Shown here: positions 924 to 27,548 of the stretch, piece by piece
Layout: each line of letters begins with the position of its first letter
Position numbering within the stretch: the stretch's first letter is position 1
IMG/VR virus record: IMGVR_UViG_3300025122_000100
Span: 1-29,191 of that record
From: a virus
Reading direction: 5' to 3' (one strand)
Length of the DNA stretch: 29,191 bases
Position numbers and translations under genes: made by a program
The notes under the pieces: generated by a model
Seen by the model: the letters and a program-made list of their open reading frames with translations, nothing else
Databases searched by the model: none
What the model was told of the DNA's origin: nothing

Positions 924-1860
924 CCTGAACTTGCGGAACACCTCCAACCCTTGGAATGCTCCGAACTGGCTAAAGAAGAATGGTAACAAAGGTGGAGTCA
1001 AGAAGCGACTGGATAAGGAATACGCGATGATCAAGGAAGAGGAAATGCTGAACTCCATCGTGGCTATGGAGGAAATGGGTGACGAAGTGGAGCCAGTGGA
1101 GCTTGAGCGGGTCAAGGAGCGTCTTGATGAGATTGCTGAGACCCGCAAGGAGACCAAGGAGCTGGCTCAGACACCACCACGCCGCTGGTGGTCCACCATG
1201 GACATCAAAGAGACGATGTACCCCAACCTCCAACTCACCAAGGAAGAGCAGAGACGAGTGGAGGTGTCCGCTCGCTTCCTCAAGACTGGACTTGCCTCGC
1301 AAGTCCCCATGACTTGTACCGGAAGGAACAAGTGCCCGTTTGCCAGAGGTTGGGAGCGAGGTGGGGGACATTGTGAGTACGCGAAGATTCAGAAAGAGCC
1401 TCTTGGAAAGCCATGCATCGTTGAGATGGATTTCATCATTGATAGGACGCAAGCATACGCCGCACAGTTCGAGGTGGGGAGCTTGCCAGATGAAGCTGTG
1501 GACAGACTGCAGTGCATGGAGCTTGCCGAGTATGACGTATACGAGAGACGTGTGACGTTGGCTCTAGCTGAGGGACAAGCGGTAGAGTTGGTCGAAGAGA
1601 ATTGCATTGGGATGGATGAAGCGGAAAATCCAATTTTTGCGAGACAGATCGCTTTGGCATGGCACATCAAGATCCAGCTCAAGAACAGAAGGGACAGAGT
1701 GCTGCGCTCTCTGGTTGCCACCAGGGAGGCCAAGTACAAGAGGGATGCCGCAATGGGCACCAAGGAGGAGACGGATCACGCAACGGGCTTTGGTCAGATG
1801 ATGGGTATCCTCAAGGGGATGCAGCCAGTCGTAGACGCAGAGTTTTCTGAGGACAGCTAA
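805..1860 (+). CDS. Hypothetical protein with four-cysteine motif, 351 aa
   Basis: The open frame extends back to 601. The ATG at 805 is the better start because GGAGG at 794-798 lies six bases before it and the upstream part is covered by the preceding gene. The N-terminus is Lys-rich, with an AT-hook-like GRPSKK stretch, followed by a charged, probably coiled-coil region. A central cluster C171-x5-C177-x12-C190-x13-C204 (CTGRNKCPFA, HCEYAK, GKPCIVE) looks like a zinc or iron-sulfur site. The rest is helical. The stop overlaps the next ATG by one base. I do not recognise the family. A DNA-binding regulator or a small-terminase-like protein are possibilities based only on the basic N-terminus and Cys cluster. 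Confidence 0.75.
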   Translation: MSEKKKEEKKVGKPERLKKVGRPSKKSGNLPEKLHPKRPNLNLRNTSNPWNAPNWLKKNGNKGGVKKRLDKEYAMIKEEEMLNSIVAMEEMGDEVEPVELERVKERLDEIAETRKETKELAQTPPRRWWSTMDIKETMYPNLQLTKEEQRRVEVSARFLKTGLASQVPMTCTGRNKCPFARGWERGGGHCEYAKIQKEPLGKPCIVEMDFIIDRTQAYAAQFEVGSLPDEAVDRLQCMELAEYDVYERRVTLALAEGQAVELVEENCIGMDEAENPIFARQIALAWHIKIQLKNRRDRVLRSLVATREAKYKRDAAMGTKEETDHATGFGQMMGILKGMQPVVDAEFSEDS

Positions 1861-4800
1861 TGGCCGGCGGGCTGCTCAAGCGCGGATATACCTTCGGTGG
1901 AAACGCTGCCCTGAGGGGTCGAGTCTTCGGCTCCCTCGCGCGGGCGTCATTCTTAGACATCGAAACAACGGGCCTACAGCCTGGCCGAGAGGGTGTAGGT
2001 ATATGGCAGGGAGCATTGGGTCGGCGCACCGCTACGGGCGGTGTGAGTATGCACACCAATATGCTCACCAACCCGGGGACCGCCTACGATCAGGCGTCTC
2101 CATGGACACGTGCATCTCTGGCTGAGACCGGAGTGGGCCAAGCCCCTTGGTCATCACCACACACACCATCAGACTTCATCAACAGATTCAACCAAGGCGT
2201 ACGAGGTACGGACTTGTGGGTGCAGAACCTCAAGTTTGAGTCTCGTCACCTGGGCCACGCCATGTCACCGGAGCAGTTCGGAGAGCTGGCCAGTTCCATG
2301 CAGACATATGGAGTTGAGAGAGATGGAGGGCTGATCAAGACCAGGAGGATGTACACAACCAGCGAGGGTGTGGACAGCGCTGTCAGTAGAGCGTGGGGAG
2401 CGGCACCAGAAGCCAGAGCCGGAGCCTGGGGCGACGTTTACGGAGCCATCAGGAAGGAGTTGGCTACAGACACACCAGCAGGCATGACCAGGATCTTTGA
2501 TATCCAGGATGTGTCCAGGGGCATGTTGGGGTTGGCGCAGCAGAAGGGCATCATCGCCAAGACAGGCGACGTGTTCACCGGCACCTCTGTTGATGTCTTC
2601 TCCCGTCTTGCATACGGCATCAAGGAGTCTCACCTAGCTGATAGAGACATCAAGCTGCAGAACATGATGCTTGAGTCGCACATGGCCATTGCAGAGAAGT
2701 TGTATACAGGGCAGAAACTCCACAAGAGCGAGACTGCGTACCTTCAGGGCATCTCTGACATGGTTCCAGATCTGAGAAAAGCAAATATCGCGAAGACCTT
2801 CGCTACAGCCCGCGAGGACATTGACAGACTTAACAGCCAGATGCCTGGGGCGCAGGGTTATGAGGTTCGAGGCAGGACGGGCACTGCTTGGGGCTGTGGA
2901 GTGGGCAGGTTTGACGGGTCACAGGGTTCAAAGTCCATCTTCGTACCCGACAAGGGTCATCTCACCTCGATGGAAGATGTCGTTCAGCACCTCAAGGGGA
3001 GAGAGCTGGAGCGTCATCCAGATATCCGTGTCGACATCGACGACATGCACAGGCAGTTCAATGCACACATGGCTGGCCCAGGGAGCACACAGGATCTGCT
3101 TCACAGCTGGGGAGCCAGCAAGAGTATTGGTGATGCCCATGTAGCAACAGCTCTAGCCACCAAGCCTGCAACCAAGCCAGGAATGATGGCTGATGCCATG
3201 GGCTTCGGCAAGAAGCACTGGAAGTGGTTCGCAGGGGCTGCTCTTGGCCTTGGTGCAATCAGGATGTTCGGCAGTAAGCAGGACTCTGATTGGGAGCCAA
3301 TGGCGGATGCCCCAGCACTGCCCCTAGAAGAGGCTCTAGCACCCAAGGAGTTCAATCCGAGGGGTGGGTTCTTCCAAGGGGCGATGGACATCTTCAGCGG
3401 CCTCACAGACGGCCCACCGGGGATGAACGAGAAGTACAAGGGACCGGTCGCCTCAGTCACCGTACCCACCAGATTCCTTCGGGCGGAGGACGCAGATACG
3501 GTCATGCTGGCTATGGGTGGCAACACCCACTCCATTCGTCTTGCCGGAATCGACGCACCCGAGACCGGACACGGAGGGTTAAGGGGCAACCAGCCTTTTG
3601 GTGACGATGCTACGGATCAGCTAGGGGCTCTCCTGGACTCCAACAGATCTATCTCTGTCATGTTCGACCCTACAGCTCCTACATCCTATGGACGTACAAC
3701 CGGTGTGCTTGTCGGTAAGAATATGTTCGGGGAGGACCAGAACATCAACCAGGCACTGGTCGCTCAGGGTGGGGCGTCCTTCCTTCCATTCGGCAAGGCA
3801 TCCAGATCATTGATTGACAGGTCTGCATTCAAGCAGGCTGAAAGGCAGGCGTTTGAGCGTCGTGCAGGAATGTGGGGTTCGCCGGCGTGGGTGGTCGAGC
3901 ATACTCTGACAGAGAAGCAGCAACGGCGTATCACGCACACTACCCTTACCAACCCCTCAAGACTGGAAGATAACTTCCGTGCTGCCAAGGTCTTTAGAGC
4001 TATGGGTAACACCATCCCAGGCTTCGACGATGCCTACAACACAATCGAAGGTATGCGCCACGGTTGGTTTGGTCAGGAGCGTAGGTTCAACACGGACTTC
4101 GGCTCTGGTTGGCAAGGCTTGTTCCAAGTTCACAGACAGAAGCTGTATGACTTCTTGTGGGGAGGCAAGAATTCGGGGATGGCGTTTGTAAAGGGAATCA
4201 AAAACCTTCAGCATGACTTCAAGAGAAACAAAGGATATATCCGTCGACAGGGGCTCAATGAAGGTGTTGGGCATGTTCGCAATCTTCTGAAAGAAGCACA
4301 GGACGAGGGACTCACAAAGGCCGGATTCATCAGTCCAGGTGTTGTCGGAGACGACCTTCTGGACGCACTGCATCATGAGGCAGTGCACCTTTATATTCCT
4401 CAGCATGTCGAATCAAAGCTGAAGAAGGCCTCCCTCTCTCTTCAAAGAGGCTTGAATCTGCCAAAGGAAACGTCGTGGTATGGATACCCTCATCATATAC
4501 TGGAAGAGATAGCGGCCTACTCTGCCGAGCCAGGGGGAATGGTCTTAAAGCGTCCTTCGGGGGCTATCGGAGACCTTGTAGACGAGACCCACAAGATTAT
4601 CGACAGGAACAGACGTTTCTATAGCGGAGAGATCGATATCAACAGAGGGCATGGTTTCTCTGGTTTTGATGATGCCTACAACGTGATTGAAGGTTTGGGT
4701 CATAAGGGTCTCGCGGGTGAGATGCGGAAGATCTTCACAGATGTCTCAGGCGCAGGTTTCGGCTCCGGCTTCCAGGGCAATTTGAACAAGGGGTTCATGG

Positions 4801-6425
4801 GAGCCTTGTATGGCGGCGACATGGAGAAGTTCGCTGCTGCCTCTGCAGAGGACGTCTGGGGTCGTGTCCAGTCCTACATGTATGGCATCAGCGGTGGAGA
4901 CATCCGAAAGGGAGACTTTGGCGCGGCTGTAAGGAGCAGGTACTTCCAAGGCCCCACTGCGCCCCATCTGACCTCCAATCCGTTGCATAAGGTCCACTGG
5001 ACACACGAAGCCTCTGAGATGTGGCACGCTATTGAAGCTGGGAGGCTTAGCTCTGGCACCTCTTACGGCGGACACATGGGCCCAGGAGTTATCACTGATG
5101 AGCTCTTGATGGCTTCCAAGATGGGTCCAGACACCTTGAAGAAGATGGCTGACTTCAGGAGGACAGAGGCTGGTGAGTGGGCGGCGTCTCTTGAGAAGCG
5201 AGGCAAGGTTTCGTGGGGTGGTGCCGTCGCAGAGAATCCACAAGGATATATCGACGACCTCCGGGCTCAGGTCGCTCATTTCGAGGGAGGATCCCCGCTT
5301 GCCTCACCCGCTAAGCCAATCCACACACAGCCGATAAATCCCATCTCTACACCAAAGCCATCTCCAGTCAGAGCTGCGGTCCAGGAGAGCAGTCACGTTC
5401 CAGCCGCAGCTGCTCGTTCACCAATCCCTGTATCCGCAGATGCAGCGGAGACGGTTGTCAGGAAGGGCGGAAGCTCCTTCAAGGGAATGGCTGGAGCGGC
5501 CATTGGTATGGGTGGCATTGCCTTGGCTGGAGTCGGTGCCTACTATCTATACGACAAGTTTGCTGGCTCCAAGATCAGTGGCCTTCCTCACCAGGGGGTT
5601 GCGGCAGAGTCCCGTGGAGCGAACACTGACTTCGGGTCTCCATACAAGGGCCCTGGCACCAGCAATCGTATCACCTCCGAGGCCCTTGCTAGTGGATTGA
5701 AGCAGGACGTCCTTGGGTTCCAGGCTGGTATCAACCGGATCTTCGAGATCATGAGAGGTGGCGTATCCACTGCTGCAGGAGAGCAGTCACGTTCCAGCCG
5801 CGGGCTCGTTCACCAAGCCCAGTATCTTGACTTCCTCAATTACAACCTTCTTGAGACCTCCGTCAGTGAAGACGTCAGGGGGTTTCAGAACACCTTGCAC
5901 CGCCTTCATGCCCAGTCTGCACAGGCTGAGGCTCACATGATGCGTGTCGAAATGGGTGAGTTCAAGAGCTTGTATACAGACTTCCACAAGAGCATGGCGG
6001 ATTTCCACCATGCGGTTGGTGAGATGCCAATCATAGATGATTTGCCACAGGTTGACACACAAGGCAACAAGACGTTGATGCGGGAGCTCAAGAAGGTTGC
6101 CAGAGAGGAAGTCAAGACAGCCAGGAAGACTTCGCAAGCAGTCGTCAAGCATGTGAGCCCTGCCAGAGGGTTGAGAGGTAGTGGGAACATGGCTGGCCTC
6201 ATGATGGGCCTTGGCATCATCGGTGCTGGGGTTGTCGGAGCTACATACATAGACTCTCTCATGGAGAGGGATGCCCCTCGGCGAGAGGCCAAGGCCAGGC
6301 GCAAGAGGACCAGTGCAGGACAACGTGTACGGCATAAGAATGCAGTGACGACGGTCAAAAAGAACTTTGACAGGAAGAGCCGAGTTGGGCACCATAGGAT
6401 GGATACGCAGAGAGGAGTATTTTAA
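1860..6425 (+). CDS. Giant multidomain protein: DEDDh exonuclease, SNase-like nuclease and HExxH protease, 1521 aa
   Basis: Residues about 29-280 form a DnaQ-like 3'-5' exonuclease. Exo I is DIETTG (D33, E35), exo II is QNLKFE (N123, with E127 replacing the usual Asp), and exo III is HLADRD (H258-x4-D263). Residues about 533-676 match a staphylococcal nuclease: D544, D546, R560, D565, E568 and R612 fall at the exact spacings of SNase D19, D21, R35, D40, E43 and R87. A zincin motif HEAVH (H839, E840, H843) is followed by EEIAAY (E883 as a candidate third ligand). The motif GFDDAYNxIEGxxH occurs at 721 and 935, each followed by an FGSG[WF]QG segment, and a remnant TDFGSPYKG lies near 1256. Hydrophobic segments lie at about 451-470, 1207-1236 and 1443-1465, and the C-terminus is basic. 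It starts by TAATG overlap. The role as virion cargo or ejection protein is inferred; a tape-measure protein is an alternative. Confidence 0.85.
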   Translation: MAGGLLKRGYTFGGNAALRGRVFGSLARASFLDIETTGLQPGREGVGIWQGALGRRTATGGVSMHTNMLTNPGTAYDQASPWTRASLAETGVGQAPWSSPHTPSDFINRFNQGVRGTDLWVQNLKFESRHLGHAMSPEQFGELASSMQTYGVERDGGLIKTRRMYTTSEGVDSAVSRAWGAAPEARAGAWGDVYGAIRKELATDTPAGMTRIFDIQDVSRGMLGLAQQKGIIAKTGDVFTGTSVDVFSRLAYGIKESHLADRDIKLQNMMLESHMAIAEKLYTGQKLHKSETAYLQGISDMVPDLRKANIAKTFATAREDIDRLNSQMPGAQGYEVRGRTGTAWGCGVGRFDGSQGSKSIFVPDKGHLTSMEDVVQHLKGRELERHPDIRVDIDDMHRQFNAHMAGPGSTQDLLHSWGASKSIGDAHVATALATKPATKPGMMADAMGFGKKHWKWFAGAALGLGAIRMFGSKQDSDWEPMADAPALPLEEALAPKEFNPRGGFFQGAMDIFSGLTDGPPGMNEKYKGPVASVTVPTRFLRAEDADTVMLAMGGNTHSIRLAGIDAPETGHGGLRGNQPFGDDATDQLGALLDSNRSISVMFDPTAPTSYGRTTGVLVGKNMFGEDQNINQALVAQGGASFLPFGKASRSLIDRSAFKQAERQAFERRAGMWGSPAWVVEHTLTEKQQRRITHTTLTNPSRLEDNFRAAKVFRAMGNTIPGFDDAYNTIEGMRHGWFGQERRFNTDFGSGWQGLFQVHRQKLYDFLWGGKNSGMAFVKGIKNLQHDFKRNKGYIRRQGLNEGVGHVRNLLKEAQDEGLTKAGFISPGVVGDDLLDALHHEAVHLYIPQHVESKLKKASLSLQRGLNLPKETSWYGYPHHILEEIAAYSAEPGGMVLKRPSGAIGDLVDETHKIIDRNRRFYSGEIDINRGHGFSGFDDAYNVIEGLGHKGLAGEMRKIFTDVSGAGFGSGFQGNLNKGFMGALYGGDMEKFAAASAEDVWGRVQSYMYGISGGDIRKGDFGAAVRSRYFQGPTAPHLTSNPLHKVHWTHEASEMWHAIEAGRLSSGTSYGGHMGPGVITDELLMASKMGPDTLKKMADFRRTEAGEWAASLEKRGKVSWGGAVAENPQGYIDDLRAQVAHFEGGSPLASPAKPIHTQPINPISTPKPSPVRAAVQESSHVPAAAARSPIPVSADAAETVVRKGGSSFKGMAGAAIGMGGIALAGVGAYYLYDKFAGSKISGLPHQGVAAESRGANTDFGSPYKGPGTSNRITSEALASGLKQDVLGFQAGINRIFEIMRGGVSTAAGEQSRSSRGLVHQAQYLDFLNYNLLETSVSEDVRGFQNTLHRLHAQSAQAEAHMMRVEMGEFKSLYTDFHKSMADFHHAVGEMPIIDDLPQVDTQGNKTLMRELKKVAREEVKTARKTSQAVVKHVSPARGLRGSGNMAGLMMGLGIIGAGVVGATYIDSLMERDAPRREAKARRKRTSAGQRVRHKNAVTTVKKNFDRKSRVGHHRMDTQRGVF
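5382..5424 (+). repeat. Direct repeat copy 1 (in-gene)
   Basis: The 26 bases at 5382-5407 are identical to 5776-5801. After a short divergent gap, the 13 bases GCTCGTTCACCAA (5412-5424) match 5804-5816. This copy is read in the phase giving QESSHVPAAA, a Pro/Ala-rich linker before the second hydrophobic segment. Confidence 0.8.
5776..5816 (+). repeat. Direct repeat copy 2 (in-gene, different phase)
   Basis: This is the second copy of the 5382 repeat, two bases shorter in the gap. It starts in a different codon phase from copy 1 relative to the 1860 start, so the same DNA encodes GEQSRSSRG here rather than QESSHVPAA. A duplication read in two frames suggests a slippage or transposition-like event that the protein tolerated. 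Confidence 0.8.
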
Positions 6426-6631: not shown

Positions 6632-7609
6632 ATGTCAGGAAGAGCACTAGCAGTAGCGGCAGGAGACTTTGGTAATAGGTTTGGCAGCGCTGTTCCCACT
6701 CCTGCAGAGACAGCAAGAGGATTGTATGCAGGAGCCAGGTGGGCGGTAGGGAGTGGTCTTCCAGCTATTTCCCGTTGGGGTGCCAAAGCTGGTGGCTATG
6801 GTGCGCAGGGTGTCAGGGGTTACTGGGATATCATGCGTGGCGCTCAGCAGCTCGCTGCAGGAGCGGACCTACCAAGCATGACAGGGCGTTGGAGTGGCGC
6901 TGACGGCTCCTCTATTACCGGCAAGCAAGCTTACCCTGGAAGATCCGCCAAGTGGCAATCTAAGCTAGCCGCTAACGGCGGTGGCCCGAGCTATTACAAT
7001 ACATACACCGCTCCTAAGAGGTTTAACCGGATGGGCATGGGAATGCCAGGAGCTATGGAGGAGGGTATGGGTGCCTTCTTCAAGCGTGGGGCTATGGGGC
7101 ACATGGCAAAAGTTGGCACGAACATGAACTTCTCTGCAAGGGGGTTGACGGGCGGTTTGTTTGAAAAGGGCGGGGCACGTTGGATGGGTCTAATGGCAGG
7201 AGCCTTCTTGCATGGTGGAGCTATGCTACAGTCTAGTGACAACATCTTCAGTGCTCGTGATGGATACGCAAGACACCTCTCTAAAGGGTTTGGTGAGTTC
7301 ATTGGTGGCGACATTGGTATGGGTGTTGGCGCATCAATCGGAACGCTGTTACCCCTGCTTGGTCCGCTAACTCCTGTTATTGGTATGTTGGCAGGTGGTG
7401 CAGTTGGTTTTATGGCAGGCGCTGCTGTAGGAGATGCTCCTTGGCAAGCAGCCGAGTGGGGTGCTCAGCAAGGCAAGCCGTTTAGGACGCACTATCAAGA
7501 TTCTCAAAGAGCTGCTACAATGAGGCAGCGCTCACTGCAGATGATCTCTCGTAGTGAAATGAATGCAAGAGGGGCCCTGTCTCAAGAGGCGTCGGCCTAC
7601 CACCTATAA
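6632..7609 (+). CDS. Gly/Ala-rich membrane-active protein, probable virion-internal, 325 aa
   Basis: It starts directly after the previous stop, with AAGGAAGG just upstream. The protein is rich in Gly, Ala and Met. A long hydrophobic glycine-zipper stretch at about residues 224-270 could form two membrane helices, and a weaker hydrophobic segment lies near 180-200. The N-terminal part is small-residue rich and the C-terminus is polar and helical (RAATMRQRSLQMISRSEMNARG). There is no signal peptide or enzyme motif. Glycine-zipper proteins next to very large virion proteins are consistent with DNA-ejection or pore proteins, but no homology is shown. Confidence 0.75.
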   Translation: MSGRALAVAAGDFGNRFGSAVPTPAETARGLYAGARWAVGSGLPAISRWGAKAGGYGAQGVRGYWDIMRGAQQLAAGADLPSMTGRWSGADGSSITGKQAYPGRSAKWQSKLAANGGGPSYYNTYTAPKRFNRMGMGMPGAMEEGMGAFFKRGAMGHMAKVGTNMNFSARGLTGGLFEKGGARWMGLMAGAFLHGGAMLQSSDNIFSARDGYARHLSKGFGEFIGGDIGMGVGASIGTLLPLLGPLTPVIGMLAGGAVGFMAGAAVGDAPWQAAEWGAQQGKPFRTHYQDSQRAATMRQRSLQMISRSEMNARGALSQEASAYHL

Positions 7610-7621
7610 GGAGATTAGACA

Positions 7622-8089
7622 ATGCAACAGTTAGACATGTTTGGGCACACCGCTGCCGCGCCAAGAAGCTTCTGGAGTCAGAAAAGAATAGGCGAGGTTG
7701 GTGGCGCGGTCCGTGGAACATTTAGTGGGATGACCAAGAAGTATGGTGCGATCAAGTCTTGGCATGGTGCTGGCAACAAGTACCATTGGAAGTCTGCCGC
7801 TCTAGCAGCGGCAGGCATTGCAGCTTCATATGGTGGTAGCTATGCACCGAGCATGGCTGGCGCTGCTGCTGGTGCGTACTTGGGTGGTCGCGCTGGAATG
7901 GCGGCTATGTCTGGATCTGCTATTGGACGGGGTATTGCTGGAACAGCACGACGTGGCGCTGCAGGTGTCATTGGAAACAAGGCCGCTGGCATGATGACAA
8001 GTCGTAGGCTTGGTGGACTGGGCGGTGGCGCAGCAGGTGCAGTATTGGGTGGCATGGCGATGGGGATTAATCGCTGGGCCTGGAGCTAA
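7622..8089 (+). CDS. Gly/Ala-rich membrane-active protein, 155 aa
   Basis: AAGGAG at 7608-7613 overlaps the preceding stop and sits eight bases before the ATG. After a polar N-terminus of about 55 residues (basic, with SFWSQKRIGEVGG), the rest is almost entirely Gly/Ala/Met with small-xxx-small periodicity (AAAGAYLGGRAGMAAM, GGLGGGAAGAVLGGMAMG). This is typical of tightly packed membrane helices. It shares composition and position with the 6632 gene and may be its partner. It is the last gene before the endonuclease cluster. A role in membrane penetration is inferred. Confidence 0.7.
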   Translation: MQQLDMFGHTAAAPRSFWSQKRIGEVGGAVRGTFSGMTKKYGAIKSWHGAGNKYHWKSAALAAAGIAASYGGSYAPSMAGAAAGAYLGGRAGMAAMSGSAIGRGIAGTARRGAAGVIGNKAAGMMTSRRLGGLGGGAAGAVLGGMAMGINRWAWS

Positions 8090-8098
8090 TACTAGAAT

Positions 8099-8545
8099 GT
8101 GGCCAGAAGGATCCGTAGACTCAAGAAACGCACACGCGATCTAACCGACCCGAACAACACTCGCTATATCACAGTTGGCCTCTCTAAAAGAAAGAGGCGC
8201 AAGAGCAAGAAGAAGACATCCTCCAAGAGGAAGAATGTCTACAGCTTGCCGGAGTACAAGAGGTGGAGGAAGGCTGTCTTCAAGAGAGATGGCTATGCTT
8301 GCAAGTTATGCGGCAAAAAAGACTATATCGAGGCGCATCACCTTCTACGGAAGGCTGATTATCCCGATTTGATCTTTGACGTGAATAATGGCATGACCCT
8401 GTGCGGACCTTGCACAGACAGGTCTTCCTGTCACGGCAAAGTAACTGGAAAAGAGTATAGGTACCTTCCTACTCTTATGAAAGAGATGTCTCCCCGACAA
8501 CGCGGGCGCTTCCAACGGTTACTCCAGAGTAAGGAGTTATGGTAA
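8099..8545 (+). CDS. HNH homing-type endonuclease, 148 aa
   Basis: The start is a GTG. The nearest GGAG (8082-8085) is 13 bases away, so the initiation site is less certain than for its neighbours. The first 45 residues are highly basic and probably bind DNA. The catalytic domain shows C68-x2-C71, E78-A-H80-H81, N97, C102-x2-C105 and H112, which is the arrangement of a zinc-stabilised HNH (beta-beta-alpha metal) nuclease. A basic helical tail (RQRGRFQRLLQSKEL) follows. The stop overlaps the start of a GIY-YIG gene. It is likely a free-standing mobile endonuclease lying between structural genes and terL. Confidence 0.85.
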   Translation: MARRIRRLKKRTRDLTDPNNTRYITVGLSKRKRRKSKKKTSSKRKNVYSLPEYKRWRKAVFKRDGYACKLCGKKDYIEAHHLLRKADYPDLIFDVNNGMTLCGPCTDRSSCHGKVTGKEYRYLPTLMKEMSPRQRGRFQRLLQSKELW

Positions 8546-9186
8546 TGGAACTGCATCCGTATTATGTCTATGAGTTAAGAGTCTCTGGTGATAAGAGCCC
8601 ATTCTATGTTGGAAAAGGTTCCAAGGATAGGATGTATCACCATGAACGAGCTGTTAGAAATGGTCGAATCCCCAACAAAAACCCTCATTTAGCAAACAAG
8701 ATTAAGAAAGCCTTAGCCGGATCTGGAATTGAATATCGGAAGGTATTCGAGTCTAGCAACGAGTTGGAGTGTCTGTCCTACGAGCGGGCACTTATCTCTA
8801 AGTACGGATTGGCCAATCTATGCAACATTGCGCCTGGTGGGAACCAACCACCGTCTACCAAAGGAAAGCCTGGGCCCAACAGGGGAAAGAAGCTTTCGGC
8901 AGAGCATAGAAGAAGGCTAAGCGAAGCTGGAAAAAGAAGGGTTACATCTGAAGCTACGAAGCGCAAGCTTAGTCTGGCTGGGCGGGGGAGGGTTGTGTCA
9001 GTCGAAACAAGGGAGAAGATAAGTTCTGGGCGAAGGGGTCCAGCCAATCCTCTGGCCAGGAAAGACCTATGGGATTCAATCGATCAGATTAGAGAGGACA
9101 AGAAGTCGGGGATGAGTTGGAGAGCGGTTGGGCGGAAATATGGAACCAGCCATCAGGTGATTCAAAGGATGTTGTCTTATGTCTAA
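8545..9186 (+). CDS. GIY-YIG homing endonuclease with NUMOD3-like repeats, 213 aa
   Basis: The frame also has an ATG at 8539, but AAGGAG at 8531-8536 is only two bases from it. The ATG at 8545 has eight-base spacing and a TAATG overlap, so I prefer 8545. The N-terminus shows the GIY-YIG core as YVYEL and FYVGKGS (residues 7-26), catalytic-type R29 with H33 nearby, and E80 in the third motif. It is followed by NUMOD3-like DNA-binding repeats (LSAEHRRRLSEAGKRR, TSEATKRKLSLAGRG, SVETREKISSGRRG) and a C-terminal helix-turn-helix (MSWRAVGRKYGTSHQVIQRML). It overlaps the terL start by eight bases. The nuclease assignment is firm; the target site is unknown. Confidence 0.9.
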   Translation: MELHPYYVYELRVSGDKSPFYVGKGSKDRMYHHERAVRNGRIPNKNPHLANKIKKALAGSGIEYRKVFESSNELECLSYERALISKYGLANLCNIAPGGNQPPSTKGKPGPNRGKKLSAEHRRRLSEAGKRRVTSEATKRKLSLAGRGRVVSVETREKISSGRRGPANPLARKDLWDSIDQIREDKKSGMSWRAVGRKYGTSHQVIQRMLSYV

Positions 9187-11197
9187 CCTTACCCTACATC
9201 CCGCCTGCATCCGCTGCAAAGAAACCAACACATTAAAGAGAGACCTCGTTGATGACGATGGCAATGTCGAGATGCGCAAAGGCCACTGGCCTATTGACTG
9301 CTCTGGCATTCCCCTAGATTACAAGGAGCTCTTAGAGACCCGTATCGGCAATCCCGAACTGCTATCCAAATTTACAGAAGAAGAGAACGAGCTCTTGCTA
9401 CAAGGGCTTGATCCAACTCGATGGGCTAAGCGCTGGCTCCTCCAAGAGAAGGGTGGATGGAAGACTCGTGGAGCTACCCCCTTCAACATGGACAAATACC
9501 AGTTGGATGAGGATGCTAAAGAGTACCAAGAGATCATGCTTAAGTGCACGGCCCGTCGCAAGGTCTTCCGAATGGGTCGTCGTACTGGAAAGACAGAGGC
9601 CATCGCAGTCCGTATCCTTCACTCTATGGTTACCTGGGCTCACGGCAACTGCAAGGTTCTTCTAGTCTGTCCATACCGATCCCAGATTGATCTGGTCTTC
9701 AAGAGAATTAGAGAGCTTATCCATAGCTCCGCTACCCTACAGAACTCCATCCGCAGACAAGTATCTAACCCATACCATGAGATCGAGTTGTTCAATGGCT
9801 CTTACATCAGAGGGTTTAGTGCGGGTACGAACTCTGGTAGTAATGCGTCCTCCGTTCGTGGACAAGCAGCAGACATTATCGTAATGGATGAGATGGATTA
9901 CCTTAACCCTGGTGACATTGACTCCATCACGGCTATCTTGATGGACCACCAGGAAACCCAGCTCTGGGCCTCTTCGACCCCTACGGGTCGTAGAGATAAG
10001 TTCTTTGAGTTCTGTCACGCTCCTGAGTTTAAGCAGTTCTACTTCCCATCTATGGCCAACCCTAACTGGAACGACTCCATGGAAAGAGAGTTCCGCAGGA
10101 TCTCTACCAAGTCTGGTTATATCCATGAGGTTCTAGCAGACTTCGGTGAAGAGGATATCGGTGTGTTCAAGAAGACGGATATCGATACAGCCATCCAACT
10201 AGGAACCAATTACAGCTATGCAGAGATGATCCCTAACACAAGGTGGGCTTACTCTATAGGAGTAGACTGGAACCCTGTTAAGGGCACAGAGATTGTAGTA
10301 GTTGGGGCGCGGCGTCCCACTGAGGATATGGGCGACGTACGCTTCAGAGTTGTTGCTACTCATACAATTGAGAAGCAGGAGTTCACAGAGATGGCAGCAA
10401 ACGAGGCTATCATCGCACTCAACCGGCAGTGGAATCCGTTGGCGATCTATCTTGACTATGGTGGCGGTGGTGTCAATCATCTAGAGCAACTTCGCATGTT
10501 CTCTAAGGGAAAGGACACAAAGACGGCAGACGGTAGGATTCGCCTAATCACCAAAGTCATTGATTTTGGCAAGTCTATTGAGATCTTTGATCCATGGTCT
10601 AAGCAGTCAACCAAGAAGCCAATGAAGCCAGTCATGGTAGAGAACGCAGTTCGCAAGATGGAGCAGCACAGGATCGAGCTGTCCTCCCATGATAATGTGT
10701 TGACAGCACAGATGCAGAACTATATTATTCAGAAGGTCACTGTAACCGGTCGCCCGGTTTACGGAATGTCCAATGAACTTGTAGGCGACCACAGGCTGGA
10801 CGCCTTTATGTTAGCGATGTTAGCTTTCCAGATGGAGGCCACTGAATTTGGTAAGCCAAGATGGGCTACCGGAATCAGAATCGCTGGCAAGTTGGGTGAG
10901 AAAGTCTCCGACGCTGTACTGAGGGCGCAGGGCCAAGCCAAGAAGGGAATGCAGGAGGAGCTGAAGCAAGACCTTCAAGGTGCCCAGCAGAGGAATCCTG
11001 ATACAGGATTCGGGCCTCGGTTTTTTAAGGGAAAGAACGTTGGTTACGCGAGTGATCTTGACCACGAGAGGGCCTGGGACGCCAGGATCGCCAAGAAAAG
11101 GCGCTCCTCCTTTGGACGACATAGTGGCCAGGGAACTAGGTCTTCAGGCCCTTCTTCCAGAAACTCACGCGGTATACCTCGCCGTAAAAACATTTAG
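9179..11197 (+). CDS. Phage terminase large subunit, 672 aa
   Basis: This is the ATP-driven DNA packaging motor and headful/genome-end nuclease. The ATPase domain has Walker A GRRTGKT (residues 133-139), Walker B IIVMDE (D237, E238) and a coupling motif SSTPTG. The C-terminal RNase H-like nuclease has three acidic positions: D363 (GVDWNP), D426 (YLDYGG) and D537/D541 (DHRLDA). An N-terminal extension of about 100 residues carries a CIRC pair. The C-terminal 40 or so residues are basic and disordered, fitting contact with DNA or portal. AAAGGA lies nine bases before the ATG. The gene is flanked by GIY-YIG genes on both sides, and a terminator hairpin follows the stop. No intron or intein interrupts it. 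Confidence 0.96.
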   Translation: MSNLTLHPACIRCKETNTLKRDLVDDDGNVEMRKGHWPIDCSGIPLDYKELLETRIGNPELLSKFTEEENELLLQGLDPTRWAKRWLLQEKGGWKTRGATPFNMDKYQLDEDAKEYQEIMLKCTARRKVFRMGRRTGKTEAIAVRILHSMVTWAHGNCKVLLVCPYRSQIDLVFKRIRELIHSSATLQNSIRRQVSNPYHEIELFNGSYIRGFSAGTNSGSNASSVRGQAADIIVMDEMDYLNPGDIDSITAILMDHQETQLWASSTPTGRRDKFFEFCHAPEFKQFYFPSMANPNWNDSMEREFRRISTKSGYIHEVLADFGEEDIGVFKKTDIDTAIQLGTNYSYAEMIPNTRWAYSIGVDWNPVKGTEIVVVGARRPTEDMGDVRFRVVATHTIEKQEFTEMAANEAIIALNRQWNPLAIYLDYGGGGVNHLEQLRMFSKGKDTKTADGRIRLITKVIDFGKSIEIFDPWSKQSTKKPMKPVMVENAVRKMEQHRIELSSHDNVLTAQMQNYIIQKVTVTGRPVYGMSNELVGDHRLDAFMLAMLAFQMEATEFGKPRWATGIRIAGKLGEKVSDAVLRAQGQAKKGMQEELKQDLQGAQQRNPDTGFGPRFFKGKNVGYASDLDHERAWDARIAKKRRSSFGRHSGQGTRSSGPSSRNSRGIPRRKNI

Positions 11198-11285: not shown

Positions 11286-11834
11286 ATGAAGAAGTCTGGA
11301 ATATACAGAATCAAACATAGAGACTCAGAGAAGTTCTATATTGGAAGTAGTAACGATATTGTTGCCAGGTGGCGATGCCACATGTCTGAGCTTAGACGTA
11401 ATGTGCACCACAACTCCCACTTGCAAAACGCTTGGAATAAATACAAGGAGAGGTTTAATTTTGAGGTGGTACTATATTGTGATCCAGAGGACTTGATCTT
11501 CTATGAGCAACGGTTTTTGGACTTCTACAAAAAGGATTGGAAAATGCTATATAACGTTAGAGTTGTTGCTGAGAGTAATAGAGGTGTTAAGAAGCGCCCT
11601 CACTCAGATGCAACGAAGAGAAAGATGAGTGAAGCTCGGAGGGGTAAGCCTTGCTTGGGCCTACGAGGAAAGCCTAGTAATCGTAGGACTCTGTCTGATG
11701 AGCAGGTGAGGGAGATTAGAGCTAGGTATACAGGTGCTTGGGGGCAAAAGAAGCGACTTGCTGTTGAGTTTGAAGCGAGTGAACGATCTATTGGAAGGAT
11801 CTTGAATGTGGAATCTTACCTGGAGGTTTTCTAA
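11286..11834 (+). CDS. GIY-YIG homing endonuclease, 182 aa
   Basis: This is a textbook GIY-YIG domain: GIY at residues 5-7, YIGSS at 18-22, R28, H32 and E74 (YEQRFL). It is followed by a NUMOD3-like stretch (SDATKRKMSEARRGKP) and a C-terminal helix-turn-helix region (LSDEQVREIRARY, LAVEFEASERSIGRIL). The start has GAGGT at 11276-11280. The DNA looks more AT-rich than that of neighbouring structural genes. It lies directly behind the terL terminator and overlaps the next structural gene by TAATG. It probably spreads by cutting a site in or near terL in related phages; the site is not known. Confidence 0.93.
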   Translation: MKKSGIYRIKHRDSEKFYIGSSNDIVARWRCHMSELRRNVHHNSHLQNAWNKYKERFNFEVVLYCDPEDLIFYEQRFLDFYKKDWKMLYNVRVVAESNRGVKKRPHSDATKRKMSEARRGKPCLGLRGKPSNRRTLSDEQVREIRARYTGAWGQKKRLAVEFEASERSIGRILNVESYLEVF

Positions 11835-13249: not shown

Positions 13250-14946
13250 TGAATGTACAGCTAGCTATGCAGCACATGACAAAGGCACAGTGTGTCGTTC
13301 AAGCCTACGAAGAGTTCCTGTACGGAAAGTTGCAGGAGGGTGGGTTTGGTGCGGAGTTTGCTGTCGATGCCATGCAGGCCAAGTATCTTGTTAAGCAACA
13401 AGAAAGCTCTGAGACGATGGTTTTTGCGATGGAGAATCGATTAGGCTCTCCTGACGCTCACCCTAACGTTGGGAGAGATTCGGAGCCTACTCCAGAGGAG
13501 TATGCTGCCGCACAAGCTGAGACTCAAGAGCGAGAGAAGAGGGATAGGGATAAAAACCCCCATGAGAATCCAGGCACGATTGATCTGGGCTTTGGTATTG
13601 GGACACTTGTCGACGACAAGGGAAATGACAAGGACGCGATTACCTTCTTTAAGAATCGAAAGGTCGGAGGGACTCTTGGCGGTATGTTCGGCCTAGACGA
13701 CTCAGGGCAGGAGTTGTCCGCTAGAGCAAAGGCCGAGAAGTTTATGGCCGACTGCATTCCGTGCGATGGCCGTGACTTCCCAGATATGGACTTCTTTCGC
13801 GACTCATTCCTAAGGACTCTGCAGCAAGATCTTAAGCAGCGCTTCGCCTGGATGGATCAGTTCGAGGGCTTCCTAAACAATATCGATCCTTTCGAGGGAC
13901 TCTGCAACCTGCTCAACCTGCTCAATTTCCTTTGCTTGCCTGACATCATGCTTATGTACATGGTCTTGATGAATACCTTGCGAGCAGAGATTGCCGCGCT
14001 CAAGAACATCAGTCTGGGAGATGCTGTCTTTGATATTGCAAGCGCTATCCTTCGCCCCTATATTGCTGGCCTCTCACAACTTCTAGATCTATGGATTAGC
14101 GCCCTCATCGCCCCTATTGAATGTGTTATTGATGCGATTCTGGCGCAGGCATCCAAGCTAGACTTCTCAGACGATAAAGAGACGACTCGGTCATGGAGGC
14201 AGCAGGCAAGCAAGACTAAGAGGGACGTAGTTGGCTGGACCAAGGCGACCTTGGATGGCTCCGGTCCCCGACGTACTACCACTGAATTCTACGAAGTTAG
14301 AGGCGATACCTTGGACCTTGATCATCGGGGTACACTCAAGCGTGATGTTAAGTCAGATCCTTCCCGTACAGTGGGTGAGTTTTCACCTCGTGGGGCCGGT
14401 CCTGGAGCAGTCAACGCAGCCAATACCATGTTAGAAAGACTAACAGATTCACTCATTAAGGGAGTGGCAGGATTAAGAGATGGGTTATTGGTAGTCGAAG
14501 AAGAGCTTAAGGCTCTTATGGGCGCAGAAAGCGACCGGATGGATAAGGCGCTGACACTCAGTCAGAACCTGAAGTTGATCGCCAGGCTCGTCAATATCTT
14601 TAGGCGATTCTGGGAGATCGGAGAGAAGTTCTCCAACGGAGAGCAGGTTAATATCTGTGCCGGGCCCCTGGAAGAAGAGGCGGTTCGTGAGATCGTTGAG
14701 ACCATCTTTGAGACGAAGGTACATGATGGGCTTGAGAGCGGGCCAAGGGAAGGCGGTGGAGCACGCATCATTGAAGATGAAGACGGTGCTTTCGAAGGTA
14801 TCGACTATTCGATTCCAGGATCCTACAAAGATGGAAGACCAGAGACCAAGTTCATCTCGATGGCTGGCTGCATGGGCCGCAGCCCAAGCACCGATGCCCT
14901 TAAGGTCCAACGTTGGATTCTGGAGATGGCCAAGGAAGAGGCATGA
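13249..14946 (+). CDS. Large unknown late-cluster protein, 565 aa
   Basis: The start is by TAATG coupling. Residues 1-65 are helical. Residues 75-120 are acidic and low complexity. A strongly hydrophobic helical block lies at about 218-300 (LCNLLNLLNFLCLPDIMLMY, FDIASAILRPYIAGL, LDLWISALIAPIECVIDAIL) and could be buried or membrane-inserting. The second half is mixed helical with several cysteines. It precedes the portal-side HNH gene and overlaps it by ATGA. The hydrophobic core is unusual for an external capsid protein and would suit an internal or neck protein, but I recognise no family. Confidence 0.75.
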   Translation: MNVQLAMQHMTKAQCVVQAYEEFLYGKLQEGGFGAEFAVDAMQAKYLVKQQESSETMVFAMENRLGSPDAHPNVGRDSEPTPEEYAAAQAETQEREKRDRDKNPHENPGTIDLGFGIGTLVDDKGNDKDAITFFKNRKVGGTLGGMFGLDDSGQELSARAKAEKFMADCIPCDGRDFPDMDFFRDSFLRTLQQDLKQRFAWMDQFEGFLNNIDPFEGLCNLLNLLNFLCLPDIMLMYMVLMNTLRAEIAALKNISLGDAVFDIASAILRPYIAGLSQLLDLWISALIAPIECVIDAILAQASKLDFSDDKETTRSWRQQASKTKRDVVGWTKATLDGSGPRRTTTEFYEVRGDTLDLDHRGTLKRDVKSDPSRTVGEFSPRGAGPGAVNAANTMLERLTDSLIKGVAGLRDGLLVVEEELKALMGAESDRMDKALTLSQNLKLIARLVNIFRRFWEIGEKFSNGEQVNICAGPLEEEAVREIVETIFETKVHDGLESGPREGGGARIIEDEDGAFEGIDYSIPGSYKDGRPETKFISMAGCMGRSPSTDALKVQRWILEMAKEEA

Positions 14947-15434
14947 AGGTTTGCATAAGGTGCAAAGAAGAAAAGTTGATGGCTGATTTCAATGCGAATA
15001 GTCGACAGTCTGATGGGAGGGATATCTATTGCAGAGAGTGCGCCAGACTCAAGCTTAAGGCATGGCGAGCTGAGAATTTTGAGCAGTACACTCAGAGTCG
15101 TCGTACCAGACTGGTGAAGCAATGGCACAAAGCATTGTGGAAGAGTGCTCGCAAAAGCGCCTCTGATCGAAATTTGGAGTTCAATCTGTCGCCCGAGGAT
15201 GTATTAGAACTTTATGAAGAGCAGGGTGGCCGGTGTTTCTGGTTTAATTTGGAGCTAAAGCCATCCGAAGTGCCTAGAGATCCCAGGCAACCATCTTTAG
15301 ATCGCTTGGATAACTCAAAAGGATATATAATGGACAATGTCGTTTTAACATGCTTAGCCGCAAATCTTGGCAGATGCATCACTCCACGCTCGGAATGGGA
15401 GCGCTTCCTAGAGTTGCTTAGAGAGGAGATCTAA
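14943..15434 (+). CDS. HNH-like homing endonuclease with N-terminal zinc ribbon, 163 aa
   Basis: The frame opens with a TTG at 14913, but the ATG at 14943 is preferred. It overlaps the preceding TGA as ATGA, and AAGGAAGAG lies just upstream. The N-terminus has C4-x2-C7 and C30-x2-C33, a zinc-ribbon layout seen in endonuclease-VII-like and HNH phage proteins. The C-terminal domain has C98, the segment SLDRLDNSKGY (118-128), N132 and C137 with N141, matching the SLDRID-GY-N-C-N pattern of a common phage HNH subfamily. It is inserted exactly between the 565-residue gene and portal, with TAATG coupling to portal. A mobile nuclease is likely; the classical catalytic His pair is not evident. Confidence 0.78.
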   Translation: MKVCIRCKEEKLMADFNANSRQSDGRDIYCRECARLKLKAWRAENFEQYTQSRRTRLVKQWHKALWKSARKSASDRNLEFNLSPEDVLELYEEQGGRCFWFNLELKPSEVPRDPRQPSLDRLDNSKGYIMDNVVLTCLAANLGRCITPRSEWERFLELLREEI

Positions 15435-17581
15435 TGAGTTGGTTTACTAATCTATTTAGGCGCGATGCTAAGAGAAAGCCCGCCCGGGTGGTCCGTGTGG
15501 CCAGGGTGCGAAATCTTATCGACCCCACTCTAAACTATGCCCAAACCACCAACGGTGCACGATGGGCAGGCGAGGGTTTTGATCCAGCAGAGTATGACCT
15601 CACAGAGATTGGGCAGGTTGAAGACACTGAGAGTTTGGTTATGCAAGCTCACAAGAAGAAGGTCGCCCTCATGTTCAAGGAGGGGCACTGCTTCTTCAGC
15701 CAGAACCTGAAGGCCAAGGACTATATTGAAAAGAGGATTGCCCAGATCGGCAGGGCGTCGGGCAAGTCCTGGAATGCTATTGTCCGATCCTTAGGTCACG
15801 ACCTTGTTCGTACATCTAACGCCTTCCTCGTTAAGACCCGCATCCTAGAAGACAGCAAGGGCAGAGCTATTTCTGGAGGGAAGATTCGCAAGACCCCCGA
15901 GGATCAGAAGCTTAAGCCTGTCGCTGCATATCATCGCCTCTCACCGGAGACGGTGGAGATCAAGCGCTCCAAAAGTAGTGGCAAGATCACCCACTACCGC
16001 CAGATCATGCCAGATGGTAGCAAGAAGATCTGGAGCAAAGACAGCATCGTTCACTTTGTCTTCAACCAGAAGGGCCACTTTAACGTCGGCACCCCAATGC
16101 TCGTACCTGTCCTCGATGACATCAGAGCACTCCGTCGCATTGAACAGAACGTAGAGATTCTGGTTTACCAGCACCTCTTCCCTTTGTATCAGTATACGGT
16201 TGGTGACAAGGATATGCCGGCTGATGTCTACACAGACGGAGAGGCAGAGATCGATCTTGTTCGTAGGGAGGTGGAACTCCTGCCCGCCGAGGGCATGATC
16301 GTCACCCCGTTCCATCACAGCATTGAAGCTATTGGAGCGGAGGGCAAGGCTCTTAAGATTGAAGGATACCTTGAGTACTTCAAGAAAAGGATCGTTGCTG
16401 GCCTTGGCATGTCCCAGGTCGACTTTGGTGATGGCGCTACCGCCAACAGAGCAACTGCAGACAATATGTCAAGGTTGCTTATCGACGATGTGAAGGACTA
16501 TCAAGAAGTCCTAAGTGACCAGATTCAGACATTTATTATCTCCGAGCTGTTATTGGAGAGTACGTTCGAGGGAGACGTCCTTGGAAAGGACTTCGCGGTC
16601 GGGCATCGATTCAAGGAAATTGACGTCGATACCAAGATCAAGAAGGAGAATGCAGCTCTACTCCTCTACCAAGGCAATGCCATTACAGAGGACGAGCTGA
16701 GAGAGGCGCTGAACAGAAACCCACTCACCGATGAGGAGCGACAGAAGCTCTTCATGAATGTGGTTGAGCAGCCAATGATGGAGAAGGAAGGGGAGTTGGC
16801 GATCAAGGTTGGCAACGCCCTACCTAAGCCGGCAGCAGCTGGAGCATCTCCTTCATCAGGCGGATCAGCTAAGACTAAGGCAACTAAGAAGGCGGTTAAG
16901 ACCAAGAGTCAGCCGACCAACCAACATAAGACTAATCCTGGTCCGACCAAGAAGAAGAGTTATCGGTTGGCAGATAGGAGCTTTAGGACACGATTCAACG
17001 AGTTGGAAGAAGATGTTTTGGGCCTCTATGGCAGAGATGGTGAGCGTGTTAACACTGACTATGTAAGGCAGATCGTTTTAGGTGGTGCCCGACAGGTCAA
17101 GGATGAGTATCGTGGAAGGGTTGTTGACGCTATGGCTAGAGGAGCCCGCAAGGGCGGCCTTGTAAACGGCCAGGCTACAATCCTTGCAGAGACTCGTGCC
17201 GCACCCCTAATCGATCGGTTTGACTTTGATGTCAGTAGATTGTATCGTGATGTCAATAGGTTAGTTGGCCGTATCTTGTTATCAAACTCCAACGATAAGG
17301 AGAGTGAGATCAAGATCGCATTTAACTCTTTGCGATACAGAACCAAGTTCATCGAGGCTACCGATATGGCTAGAGCCGAGAACTTTGGTCGTGCGAGAGC
17401 ACTGGCCGCTCTTGGATTCGATGAAGCTATCTCGATCCAGCATGGAGATACGGACGATATTTGCGCTGAGCTGCATGGTCAGCCAGTGGATATCCGAGGA
17501 ATTGGAATTGACCAAGTCCCGCCATATCACCCCATGTGCAATTGTGAACTAGTACAACCGGAGCAAACAAATGACAACTAA
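15434..17581 (+). CDS. Portal protein with C-terminal MuF-like domain, 715 aa
   Basis: The portal is the dodecameric ring at one capsid vertex through which terminase pumps DNA. The N-terminal ~450 residues follow a portal pattern: YHRLSPETVEI, a VHFVFNQKGHFNVGTPMLVPVLDDI turn, then a long helical crown-like region containing RIVAGLGMSQVDFG. Residues about 464-512 are a Lys/Pro/Ala/Thr-rich flexible linker. The last ~200 residues resemble an SPP1 gp7/MuF minor head protein: ATDMARAENFGRARALAALG, DDICAELHGQ and a final PPYHPMCNCEL. So this looks like a portal-minor head protein fusion. AGGAG at 15424-15428 precedes a TAATG start. The stop overlaps the next gene by 11 bases. Confidence 0.88.
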   Translation: MSWFTNLFRRDAKRKPARVVRVARVRNLIDPTLNYAQTTNGARWAGEGFDPAEYDLTEIGQVEDTESLVMQAHKKKVALMFKEGHCFFSQNLKAKDYIEKRIAQIGRASGKSWNAIVRSLGHDLVRTSNAFLVKTRILEDSKGRAISGGKIRKTPEDQKLKPVAAYHRLSPETVEIKRSKSSGKITHYRQIMPDGSKKIWSKDSIVHFVFNQKGHFNVGTPMLVPVLDDIRALRRIEQNVEILVYQHLFPLYQYTVGDKDMPADVYTDGEAEIDLVRREVELLPAEGMIVTPFHHSIEAIGAEGKALKIEGYLEYFKKRIVAGLGMSQVDFGDGATANRATADNMSRLLIDDVKDYQEVLSDQIQTFIISELLLESTFEGDVLGKDFAVGHRFKEIDVDTKIKKENAALLLYQGNAITEDELREALNRNPLTDEERQKLFMNVVEQPMMEKEGELAIKVGNALPKPAAAGASPSSGGSAKTKATKKAVKTKSQPTNQHKTNPGPTKKKSYRLADRSFRTRFNELEEDVLGLYGRDGERVNTDYVRQIVLGGARQVKDEYRGRVVDAMARGARKGGLVNGQATILAETRAAPLIDRFDFDVSRLYRDVNRLVGRILLSNSNDKESEIKIAFNSLRYRTKFIEATDMARAENFGRARALAALGFDEAISIQHGDTDDICAELHGQPVDIRGIGIDQVPPYHPMCNCELVQPEQTNDN

Positions 17582-26195: not shown

Positions 26196-27548
26196 GTGTA
26201 CCCAAGACTCCCAGCAGAAGGTATCCTGTTCAGGGAGCTCTTCGACTCCTACGATTCTGTCGCAAGGAACAGCGGGGCCATTGCGGGCAACACAACCATA
26301 GTGGGCGGAGGGGCCATCTTCGACGGCGCTTCCGGCAGCATCAGCTATCCCTCCCATTCGACGATAGACGACATCTTCGACGGAGGCGGCACCGTGGAGG
26401 TGCTCCTCAACGTCACCTCTGATGGTGAGGGCAGCTTTGGAAGGGTCTACGCCAAGGGCCCCGTCCTTGTGTTTGTATTTGAAGAGGCCGGTGGCTTCGC
26501 CCGCTTTGGATTCCTCATGAACTGGAGCGGGGCGAACGGGAGCTGGGACTCCGCTGTAGGGGCCCTGACCCTGGGCGTCTTGCACCATCTCGTCATCACG
26601 TACGACAGCGACAATCCGGCCAACGACCCGATCTTCTATCTGGATGGTGCGCCGATCACCGTGGGGGCCGGATCTCCCACCGGAACCAGATCCACCGACG
26701 CCGCCGACCCCCTGTACATCGGGAACAGAGCGGCTGACGACAGGACCTTCGATGGCACCATTCACGAGACGCATTTCTACGACCGCATCCTGACCGCCGC
26801 CGAGGTTGCTGACAGGTTCGCCGCCACGACGTTCAGCGAGATCGATTCGGCACAGGCCATCATCCACCTGCCGCTGGAGACGAACTACAACAACGGATCC
26901 CAGGTCACGGACAACAAGGGGTCTGCGGGAGGGACCGTCACGCTGGGCGACGGGGCCACAGCGTCCACCTTCCCGACCCAGGGCGTCCCGCATGGGATGA
27001 ACTTCGACGGGGGCACGGACTACCTGGGTGCCGGGTTCGCAGCCGCCATCGCAGACATATTCGACGGCGGCGGCACCTTTTCCTGCTGGGTGCGGGTGGA
27101 GAGCGACGGCGAGAACAGCCTCGGGCACCTCTGCCACAAGAGCGATTGGCAGATCTTCGTCAAGACCGAGACGGACAACGCTGTGGAGTTGCAGCTCACG
27201 TATGCCTTCGACGGCGCAACCGGCAACTGGGACACCACGGTGCCGGAGATCTTCCTGAACCAGTGGACCCACATTGCCGTCGTGTACGACAACGACGACA
27301 CGACAAACGATCCGATCTTCTACATCGACGGTAGGGCCCTGACGGTCGGAGACGGCCTCACGGAGGGCGTGACCCCGGTCGGGACGAGGCTCTCTGATAG
27401 CACAAACACGCTGTTCTTGGGCGACACGAGTGGTCATGTCAATTCGTTCGATGGCGATCTTTGGGATCTGCGCCTCTACAACTTCGAGCTGACGCCCTTG
27501 CAGGTAGATTACTTGTACCGTCGGGGTCGCCGGGAGTTGTCGGTATGA
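26196..27548 (+). CDS. Tandem LamG-domain protein, 450 aa
   Basis: The start is a GTG directly after the previous stop, with AAGGAG at 26184-26189. Two concanavalin/LamG domains lie at about residues 40-210 and 245-440. Both have the signatures DIFDGGGT, a GxWD turn, (L/N)xxHxxIxY/HIAVVYD, NDPIFY[LI]DG, PxGTR and a closing LYNFELTPLQV-type strand. LamG domains bind carbohydrate or protein, so a receptor-binding or capsid-surface lectin is the best guess. The DNA is much more GC-rich than the genes upstream. It overlaps the next gene by four bases (ATGA). Confidence 0.88.
   Translation: MYPRLPAEGILFRELFDSYDSVARNSGAIAGNTTIVGGGAIFDGASGSISYPSHSTIDDIFDGGGTVEVLLNVTSDGEGSFGRVYAKGPVLVFVFEEAGGFARFGFLMNWSGANGSWDSAVGALTLGVLHHLVITYDSDNPANDPIFYLDGAPITVGAGSPTGTRSTDAADPLYIGNRAADDRTFDGTIHETHFYDRILTAAEVADRFAATTFSEIDSAQAIIHLPLETNYNNGSQVTDNKGSAGGTVTLGDGATASTFPTQGVPHGMNFDGGTDYLGAGFAAAIADIFDGGGTFSCWVRVESDGENSLGHLCHKSDWQIFVKTETDNAVELQLTYAFDGATGNWDTTVPEIFLNQWTHIAVVYDNDDTTNDPIFYIDGRALTVGDGLTEGVTPVGTRLSDSTNTLFLGDTSGHVNSFDGDLWDLRLYNFELTPLQVDYLYRRGRRELSV

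Follow-up and report, generated by a model that had tools for sequence, protein, structure and literature searches.

What is the business of a single, very large protein with the marks of two nucleases and a protease, encoded just upstream of the large terminase subunit gene (terL) of a phage? The question is raised by the window analyzed here, the whole stretch of 29,191 nucleotides (positions 1 to 29,191) of the IMG/VR record IMGVR_UViG_3300025122_000100, and in particular by the gene of the multi-module protein P0001 (positions 1860-6425; this gene, its parts and its neighbors as far as terL are all on the + strand). An earlier note on this DNA had described a single frame of 1521 residues, and the frame indeed opens with an ATG, runs free of internal stops and encodes a protein for which homologues were found. 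The note's picture of two nucleases joined to a protease was largely right for this frame, but it undersold the case: P0001 belongs to a modular family, and the set of modules differs from protein to protein. The N-terminal part, moreover, has a homologue, ME3_11, in an isolated phage.

The most firmly established part of P0001 is its staphylococcal-nuclease-type (SNase) module (positions 3480-3989; residues 541-710), which was the only match in a Pfam search of the protein (PF00565, residues 559-672, E=1.3e-12). The thermonucleases of the PDB match this module from E=1e-9, and in the alignment with them D546, R560, D565, E568, and R612 occupy the places of SNase D21, R35, D40, E43, and R87, so that all five catalytic residues are present. 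An AF2 model of residues 1-720 was good in the SNase part only, with a TM score (target) of 0.81 against SNase structures. P0001 thus has both the OB-fold and the five catalytic equivalents of PF00565, and the SNase-like nuclease of the earlier note is firmly borne out by alignment and model. The SNase part was also all that PADLOC matched, and P0001 was accordingly rejected as a known anti-phage defense protein.

The nature of the N-terminal module (positions 1944-2864; residues 29-335) is reached by a less direct route. The five residues which had been taken to mark a DEDDh-type (DnaQ-like) exonuclease, D33, E35, E127, H258, and D263, lie exactly where they had been placed, and none of them differs in ME3_11 or in the homologues L012, L015, and L023. 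They fit the motifs DxE, (N)xxF[D/E], and HxxxxD, which in a DEDDh enzyme belong to one RNase-H-like fold, but the region of P0001 that contains them has no confident fold or direct match: it has no Pfam or PDB match of its own, even in a profile search against the PDB, and its AF2 model is not confident and is poor at motif I. In all of these proteins, moreover, the third acidic residue, that of motif II, is E (E127 in P0001) and not the usual D. The exonucleases of the family fall into two subgroups, A3 (P0001-like) and A8. Group A8 matches TREX-like exonucleases, DnaQ, and Cas2-DEDDh in the PDB (best E=2e-5), and the relative L115 connects A8 to the P0001 type; this transitive homology to solved exonucleases supports the identification of the P0001 N-terminus as a DEDDh-type exonuclease.

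A third module (positions 4140-4529; residues 761-890) contains the sole HExxH of P0001 (residues 839-843; 0.09 expected from composition) and has homologues in L109 and L117. H839, E840, H843, E882, and E883 are invariant in the three homologous modules, which are otherwise 26-32% identical, and this conservation supports a putative zincin, probably a protease. Structural confirmation of the zincin that had been proposed here was not obtained: the profile search against the PDB returned nothing for the HExxH module, and a model of residues 715-1160, too weak for the search to be meaningful, gave no fold match. Scans for additional relatives of the exonuclease and HExxH modules led only to loci that were already known. 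P0001 also contains a second HE-containing module, not reported in the earlier note (THEASEMWH ... GGHMGPGVITDEL; positions 4983-5168; residues 1042-1103), with homologues in L012, L015, L018, L102, and L107; neither of the two HE modules gave a confident AF2 model.

The hydrophobic segments of P0001 are moderate in strength. The two at residues 1209-1227 (positions 5484-5540, 11 residues ahead of the third copy of the motif described below) and 1444-1462 (positions 6189-6245) stand as originally proposed, but the one at residues 455-474 (positions 3222-3281) is weak and below threshold, even if it aligns with a segment of L012 and L023. The protein ends in a tail (positions 6258-6422, ending in ...SRVGHHRMDTQRGVF) which is as basic as had been claimed, with 18 K/R versus 5 D/E in its last 55 residues, and most of the relatives carry short Gly/His tails akin to it.

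The main feature of P0001 had escaped the earlier note. It is a junction motif of about 35 residues, with the consensus FSGxDDxYNTIEGLxHxGxAxxxRxxxTDFGSGW, which is repeated at the junctions of the modules; the repeat first recognized in the relatives had the consensus GxDDxYNTIEGLxHxGxAGxxRxxxTDFGSGW. Its three copies in P0001 are located at residues 721-754 (GFDDAYNTIEGMRHGWFGQERRFNTDFGSGWQGL; positions 4020-4121; E=4e-22), 935-973 (positions 4662-4778; E=5e-15) and, in a degenerate form, 1239-1264 (positions 5574-5651; E=1e-9). The motif is predicted to be unfolded (AF2 pLDDT ~30), and a hydrophobic stretch lies ahead of 71% of the first copies, as against 20% of the later copies and 4% of random positions. 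A motif scan of IMG/VR yielded 31 loci, and iterated profiles defined a family of 25 distinct IMG/VR proteins of 725-2419 aa with 1-6 copies each; there is one such protein per contig, nearly always at a single locus. In 27 complete records, some as long as 204 kb, there were 79 significant motif matches, and all of them fall within one open frame per record. A silent archive of cassettes elsewhere in these genomes was considered, and none was seen, each motif copy found being in the one gene. Among the 50,697 phage records no match to the motif turned up with a cutoff as loose as E=10, a scan of GTDB contigs gave no confirmed match, and the string TDFGSG was not found in the literature. Relatives of the whole protein were found neither by peptide patterns in IMG/VR nor by tblastn of the 50,697 phage records; homologues of P0001 were reached only via terL and via the junction motif. 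When P0001 was compared by tblastn with terL-neighboring IMG/VR loci, relatives were recovered upstream of terL, and individual stretches of P0001 each matched several places within one relative.

The locus occupied by these genes is a fixed one. The conserved order is g419, modular protein, small or glycine-zipper gene, terL, g161, g565, and portal; g419 (positions 691-1860 in the window), a homologue of ME3_9, precedes the modular gene in 22 of the 25 loci, and terL follows it by a few kb in 23, with the portal and capsid genes beyond. Between P0001 and terL (positions 9179-11197, of the 0305phi8-36/ME3 kind) the window encodes the glycine-zipper membrane protein g325 (positions 6632-7609), which has homologues in most of the loci and in KLEB27-3 (gp009; no paper on this phage was found), and a small glycine/alanine-rich membrane protein of 155 aa with no family match (positions 7622-8089). 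Acinetobacter phage vB_AbaM_ME3 has the same locus, in which ME3_9, ME3_11, and the membrane protein ME3_12 are followed by terL. ME3_11 (AND75172.1, a hypothetical protein of 530 aa) consists of the exonuclease homologue and one C-terminal hydrophobic segment; it shares with P0001 the five exonuclease residues, the hydrophobic segment and the locus, two genes upstream of terL, but has no SNase, HExxH module or motif copies. A wider group of terL relatives without the motif encodes, again at this locus, a DEDDh-transmembrane (TM) protein of 1000-1400 aa with the conserved tail DPLVTAGVVGNLDRxKIGHTxMG..KxNHLYG. Since both ME3_11 and these motif-less relatives occupy the same site, the exonuclease-TM-tail arrangement is presumably ancestral, and the cassettes would have been added in the group to which the window belongs.

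Complete members of the family usually start with the DEDDh exonuclease, after which come a hydrophobic segment and then motif copy 1. Behind this start the modules are shuffled: SNase (found in ten family proteins), two HExxH-like modules, kinases, and others, including several unnamed module families, occur in varying order. Short kinases are present in many members, with Pfam Pkinase matches as good as E=1e-10 (in L107) and ABC1/APH/RIO matches elsewhere, and most of the kinase matches break off around position 146-156 in a Pfam model of 263 positions. An ART-like module in L012, L015, and L121 was judged by eye only, and L094 has an intein. The comparison of L012 with L015 reveals an actual exchange of one module. 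A comparison of ~20 kb of these contigs showed an identity of about 99%, and their 6.6-kb modular genes are essentially identical except for a segment of ~220 residues (protein ~1283-1505), where the nucleotide identity falls to ~0.3-0.7. One breakpoint lies within motif copy 2 (1279-1312) and the other just ahead of copy 3 (1510-1543). The swapped segment is the second HE module, of which both alleles have kept HExSExYH and FGSH...P.VI.DEL. An assembly chimera is argued against by the presence of each allele in two assemblies (L012 and L014; L013 and L015), though the samples may be related.

What purpose might such a protein serve? We lean towards the view that P0001 is a virion-delivered, polyvalent-like multi-effector of a large ME3/0305phi8-36-like myovirus, composed of exchangeable cassettes. 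The founding part would have resembled the stand-alone ME3_11, with a transmembrane segment behind a DEDDh exonuclease, and the extra enzyme modules (SNase, HExxH, second HE) would have been joined behind or between copies of the probably unfolded 35-residue motif. P0001 would be stored in the phage particle, and during DNA entry its hydrophobic segments, perhaps with the glycine-zipper neighbor, would insert it into the host inner membrane or thread it through. The modules could thereby be exposed to the cytoplasm, with nucleic acid and protein as their targets. The motif copies may in addition provide short conserved junctions for recombination between related phages, by which the arsenal could change at a fixed locus. 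The virion packaging, the ejection, the catalytic activity, and the targets of P0001 are what we infer here. Two kinds of observation support delivery by the particle, short of proof. In the relatives L092 and L094, one fused protein unites the exonuclease-TM-motif cassette with a homologue of ME3_35, which is annotated as a virion structural protein, and these fusion genes are situated directly behind the sheath, tube, and chaperonin genes. Furthermore, SNase modules occur in hub or lysin proteins of the isolates ME3 (ME3_37), MTATph1, and KLEB27-3, and in the hub of the BtI1 element, where no obvious reason for the SNase was found (PMC2147016). These fusions and hub SNases, together with the terL/glycine-zipper locus and the polyvalent-type kinases, make likelier the earlier note's suggestion of an ejected cargo, in which ejection itself, and host chromosome or defense proteins as the targets, are deductions. 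A locus adjacent to terL also fits a role in head assembly, and this we counted against a virion effector, along with the moderate strength of the hydrophobic segments, the lack of a confident model for the exonuclease and the two HE modules, and the failure to find polyvalent seed domains in P0001 (see below).

The main rival is a membrane nuclease made in the infected cell. On this account P0001 would be seated in the membrane, be no part of the particle, and serve host-DNA breakdown, genome processing, or the exclusion of competing phages. Lytic phages commonly make nuclease arsenals in the cell, and a combination of hydrophobic segments with nucleases suits such a role, the packaging of P0001 itself being no more than probable; yet the late structural neighborhood of the gene, the tail structural protein to which L092 and L094 have the cassette joined, and the occurrence of SNase modules in the hubs of isolated phages all speak against it, and we consider it rather unlikely. 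Nor do we think it probable that P0001 is a head polyprotein, which the prohead protease would cut in the motif (...T-I-E|G...) into separate internal proteins that are ejected singly, even though the motif is located at the module junctions and is unfolded in the AF2 model. The proteases of giant phages cleave after Glu at S/A/G/T-X-E (PMC5694885), a site description that T-I-E|G fits, and the window does encode a homologue of the annotated KLEB27-3 prohead protease (positions 17571-19703). However, 35 conserved residues far exceed such cleavage sites, and several copies of the motif have no Thr/Ser at the position concerned.

An ordinary tape-measure-like structural protein, with enzyme-like modules that are decorative or decayed, seems very improbable. 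The fusion partner in L092 and L094 does occupy the place of a tape measure, but these two alone are located there, and as fusions; a tape-measure gene lies behind that of the tail chaperonin and its length tracks that of the tail, whereas P0001 and most of its relatives adjoin terL. The range of 725-2419 aa within one lineage is, moreover, unlike a ruler, and the catalytic residues of the SNase and exonuclease modules are kept in very diverged proteins. A bolder version of the virion-delivered effector, which we put forward only tentatively and regard as doubtful, is that the motif marks every exchangeable cassette of a particle-borne polyprotein weapon at one hypervariable locus; a dedicated protease, packaging, or threading factor would read the motif, and joining the motif to an enzyme would make that enzyme cargo.

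Among known systems, the closest in manner are the polyvalent proteins, multidomain chains of 2-15 domains whose genes lie near packaging genes and whose entry into the host along with the DNA has been proposed (Iyer et al. 2017, PMC5512222). Nucleases, zincins, kinases, and other effectors are mixed in these large chains, much as in the P0001 family with its putative zincin, and their kinases are devoid of the C-terminal lobe, which the kinases of the P0001 relatives also seem to lack. The passages drawn on do not mention SNase, and the 35-residue motif, the constant exonuclease-TM start, and the exchange at motifs do not occur in them (PMC5512222). P0001 has several effector-type modules in one chain (exonuclease, SNase, HExxH, and second HE) and is linked to late and packaging genes (terL, portal, and capsid genes downstream). 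The polyvalent seed domains (Ard, DarA/B, MuF, Alt-type ART, N4 RNAP, relaxase, and PolyVal zincin) gave no Pfam, NCBIfam, or PHROG match in P0001, and for this reason we place it as working like the polyvalent proteins and not as a proven member. The SNase hub proteins of ME3 (ME3_37), MTATph1, KLEB27-3, and BtI1 (PMC2147016) belong to the same virus lineage and likewise have an SNase inside a large protein; they are known or presumed virion parts, and they differ from P0001 in their carrier (hub or lysin), in their locus and in the absence of the junction motif. By analogy, P0001 would act like T4 Alt and the IPs, or the internal head and ejection proteins of the giant phage SPN3US (PMC5694885), enzymes that the head stores and that accompany the DNA into the host, but no sequence relation to any of these was found.

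Our searches turned up no precedent for the junction motif, for the constant exonuclease-TM start of these proteins, or for module exchange bounded by the motif. If the virion-delivered effector is the correct interpretation, the family would represent a motif-marked, cassette-exchanging form of the injected multi-effector phage proteins, one absent from the 50,697 phage records searched. The SNase domains in the hub proteins of this lineage, a puzzle since 2007 (PMC2147016), would then have a possible answer, and the variable modules would become candidate anti-host or counter-defense enzymes. The motif itself would be a candidate signal for sorting, threading, or cleavage, and the manner in which giant phages select and load the proteins that are first to enter the host would become testable.

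The terL (large terminase subunit) and portal genes of the window are flanked by one HNH gene, two GIY-YIG/NUMOD3 genes and one endonuclease VII/HNH-type gene (8099-9186, 11286-11834 and 14913-15434), all of which probably encode homing endonucleases. An intein-like insert interrupts the ATP-binding site of terL in Acinetobacter phage vB_AbaM_ME3 (L002:9152-11434), where the sequence reads GRR...HNTGKT, and in phage KLEB27-3 (L004:5296-8250); the window's terL lacks it. Another intein-like insert (Hint plus LAGLIDADG) lies at about residues 1290-1740 of the L094 protein, a fusion of the motif cassette to a tail virion-structural protein (L094:7835-15067). In six terL relatives (L025, L028, L048, L049, L064 and L080), the gene encoding a DEDDh exonuclease, a transmembrane segment and a conserved tail, located upstream of terL, does not form a single frame but is split over at least two; introns or frameshifts may be the cause.

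The window's portal (15434-17581) is apparently a portal-MuF fusion, its C-terminal part (625-707) matching head-morphogenesis/minor head (MuF-like) proteins. The window's homologue (17571-19703) of the prohead protease annotated in KLEB27-3 has a coiled-coil C-terminal part. A concanavalin-A-like lectin domain protein of the window (26196-27548; Laminin_G_3, E=5e-31) matches virion structural families.

The C-terminus of most relatives among the motif proteins is a short, basic stretch that contains a Gly-rich/His element of the form GGxxH or GHxxM, exemplified by that of the window's member, P0001 (6380-6422), and this tail is possibly a packaging signal.
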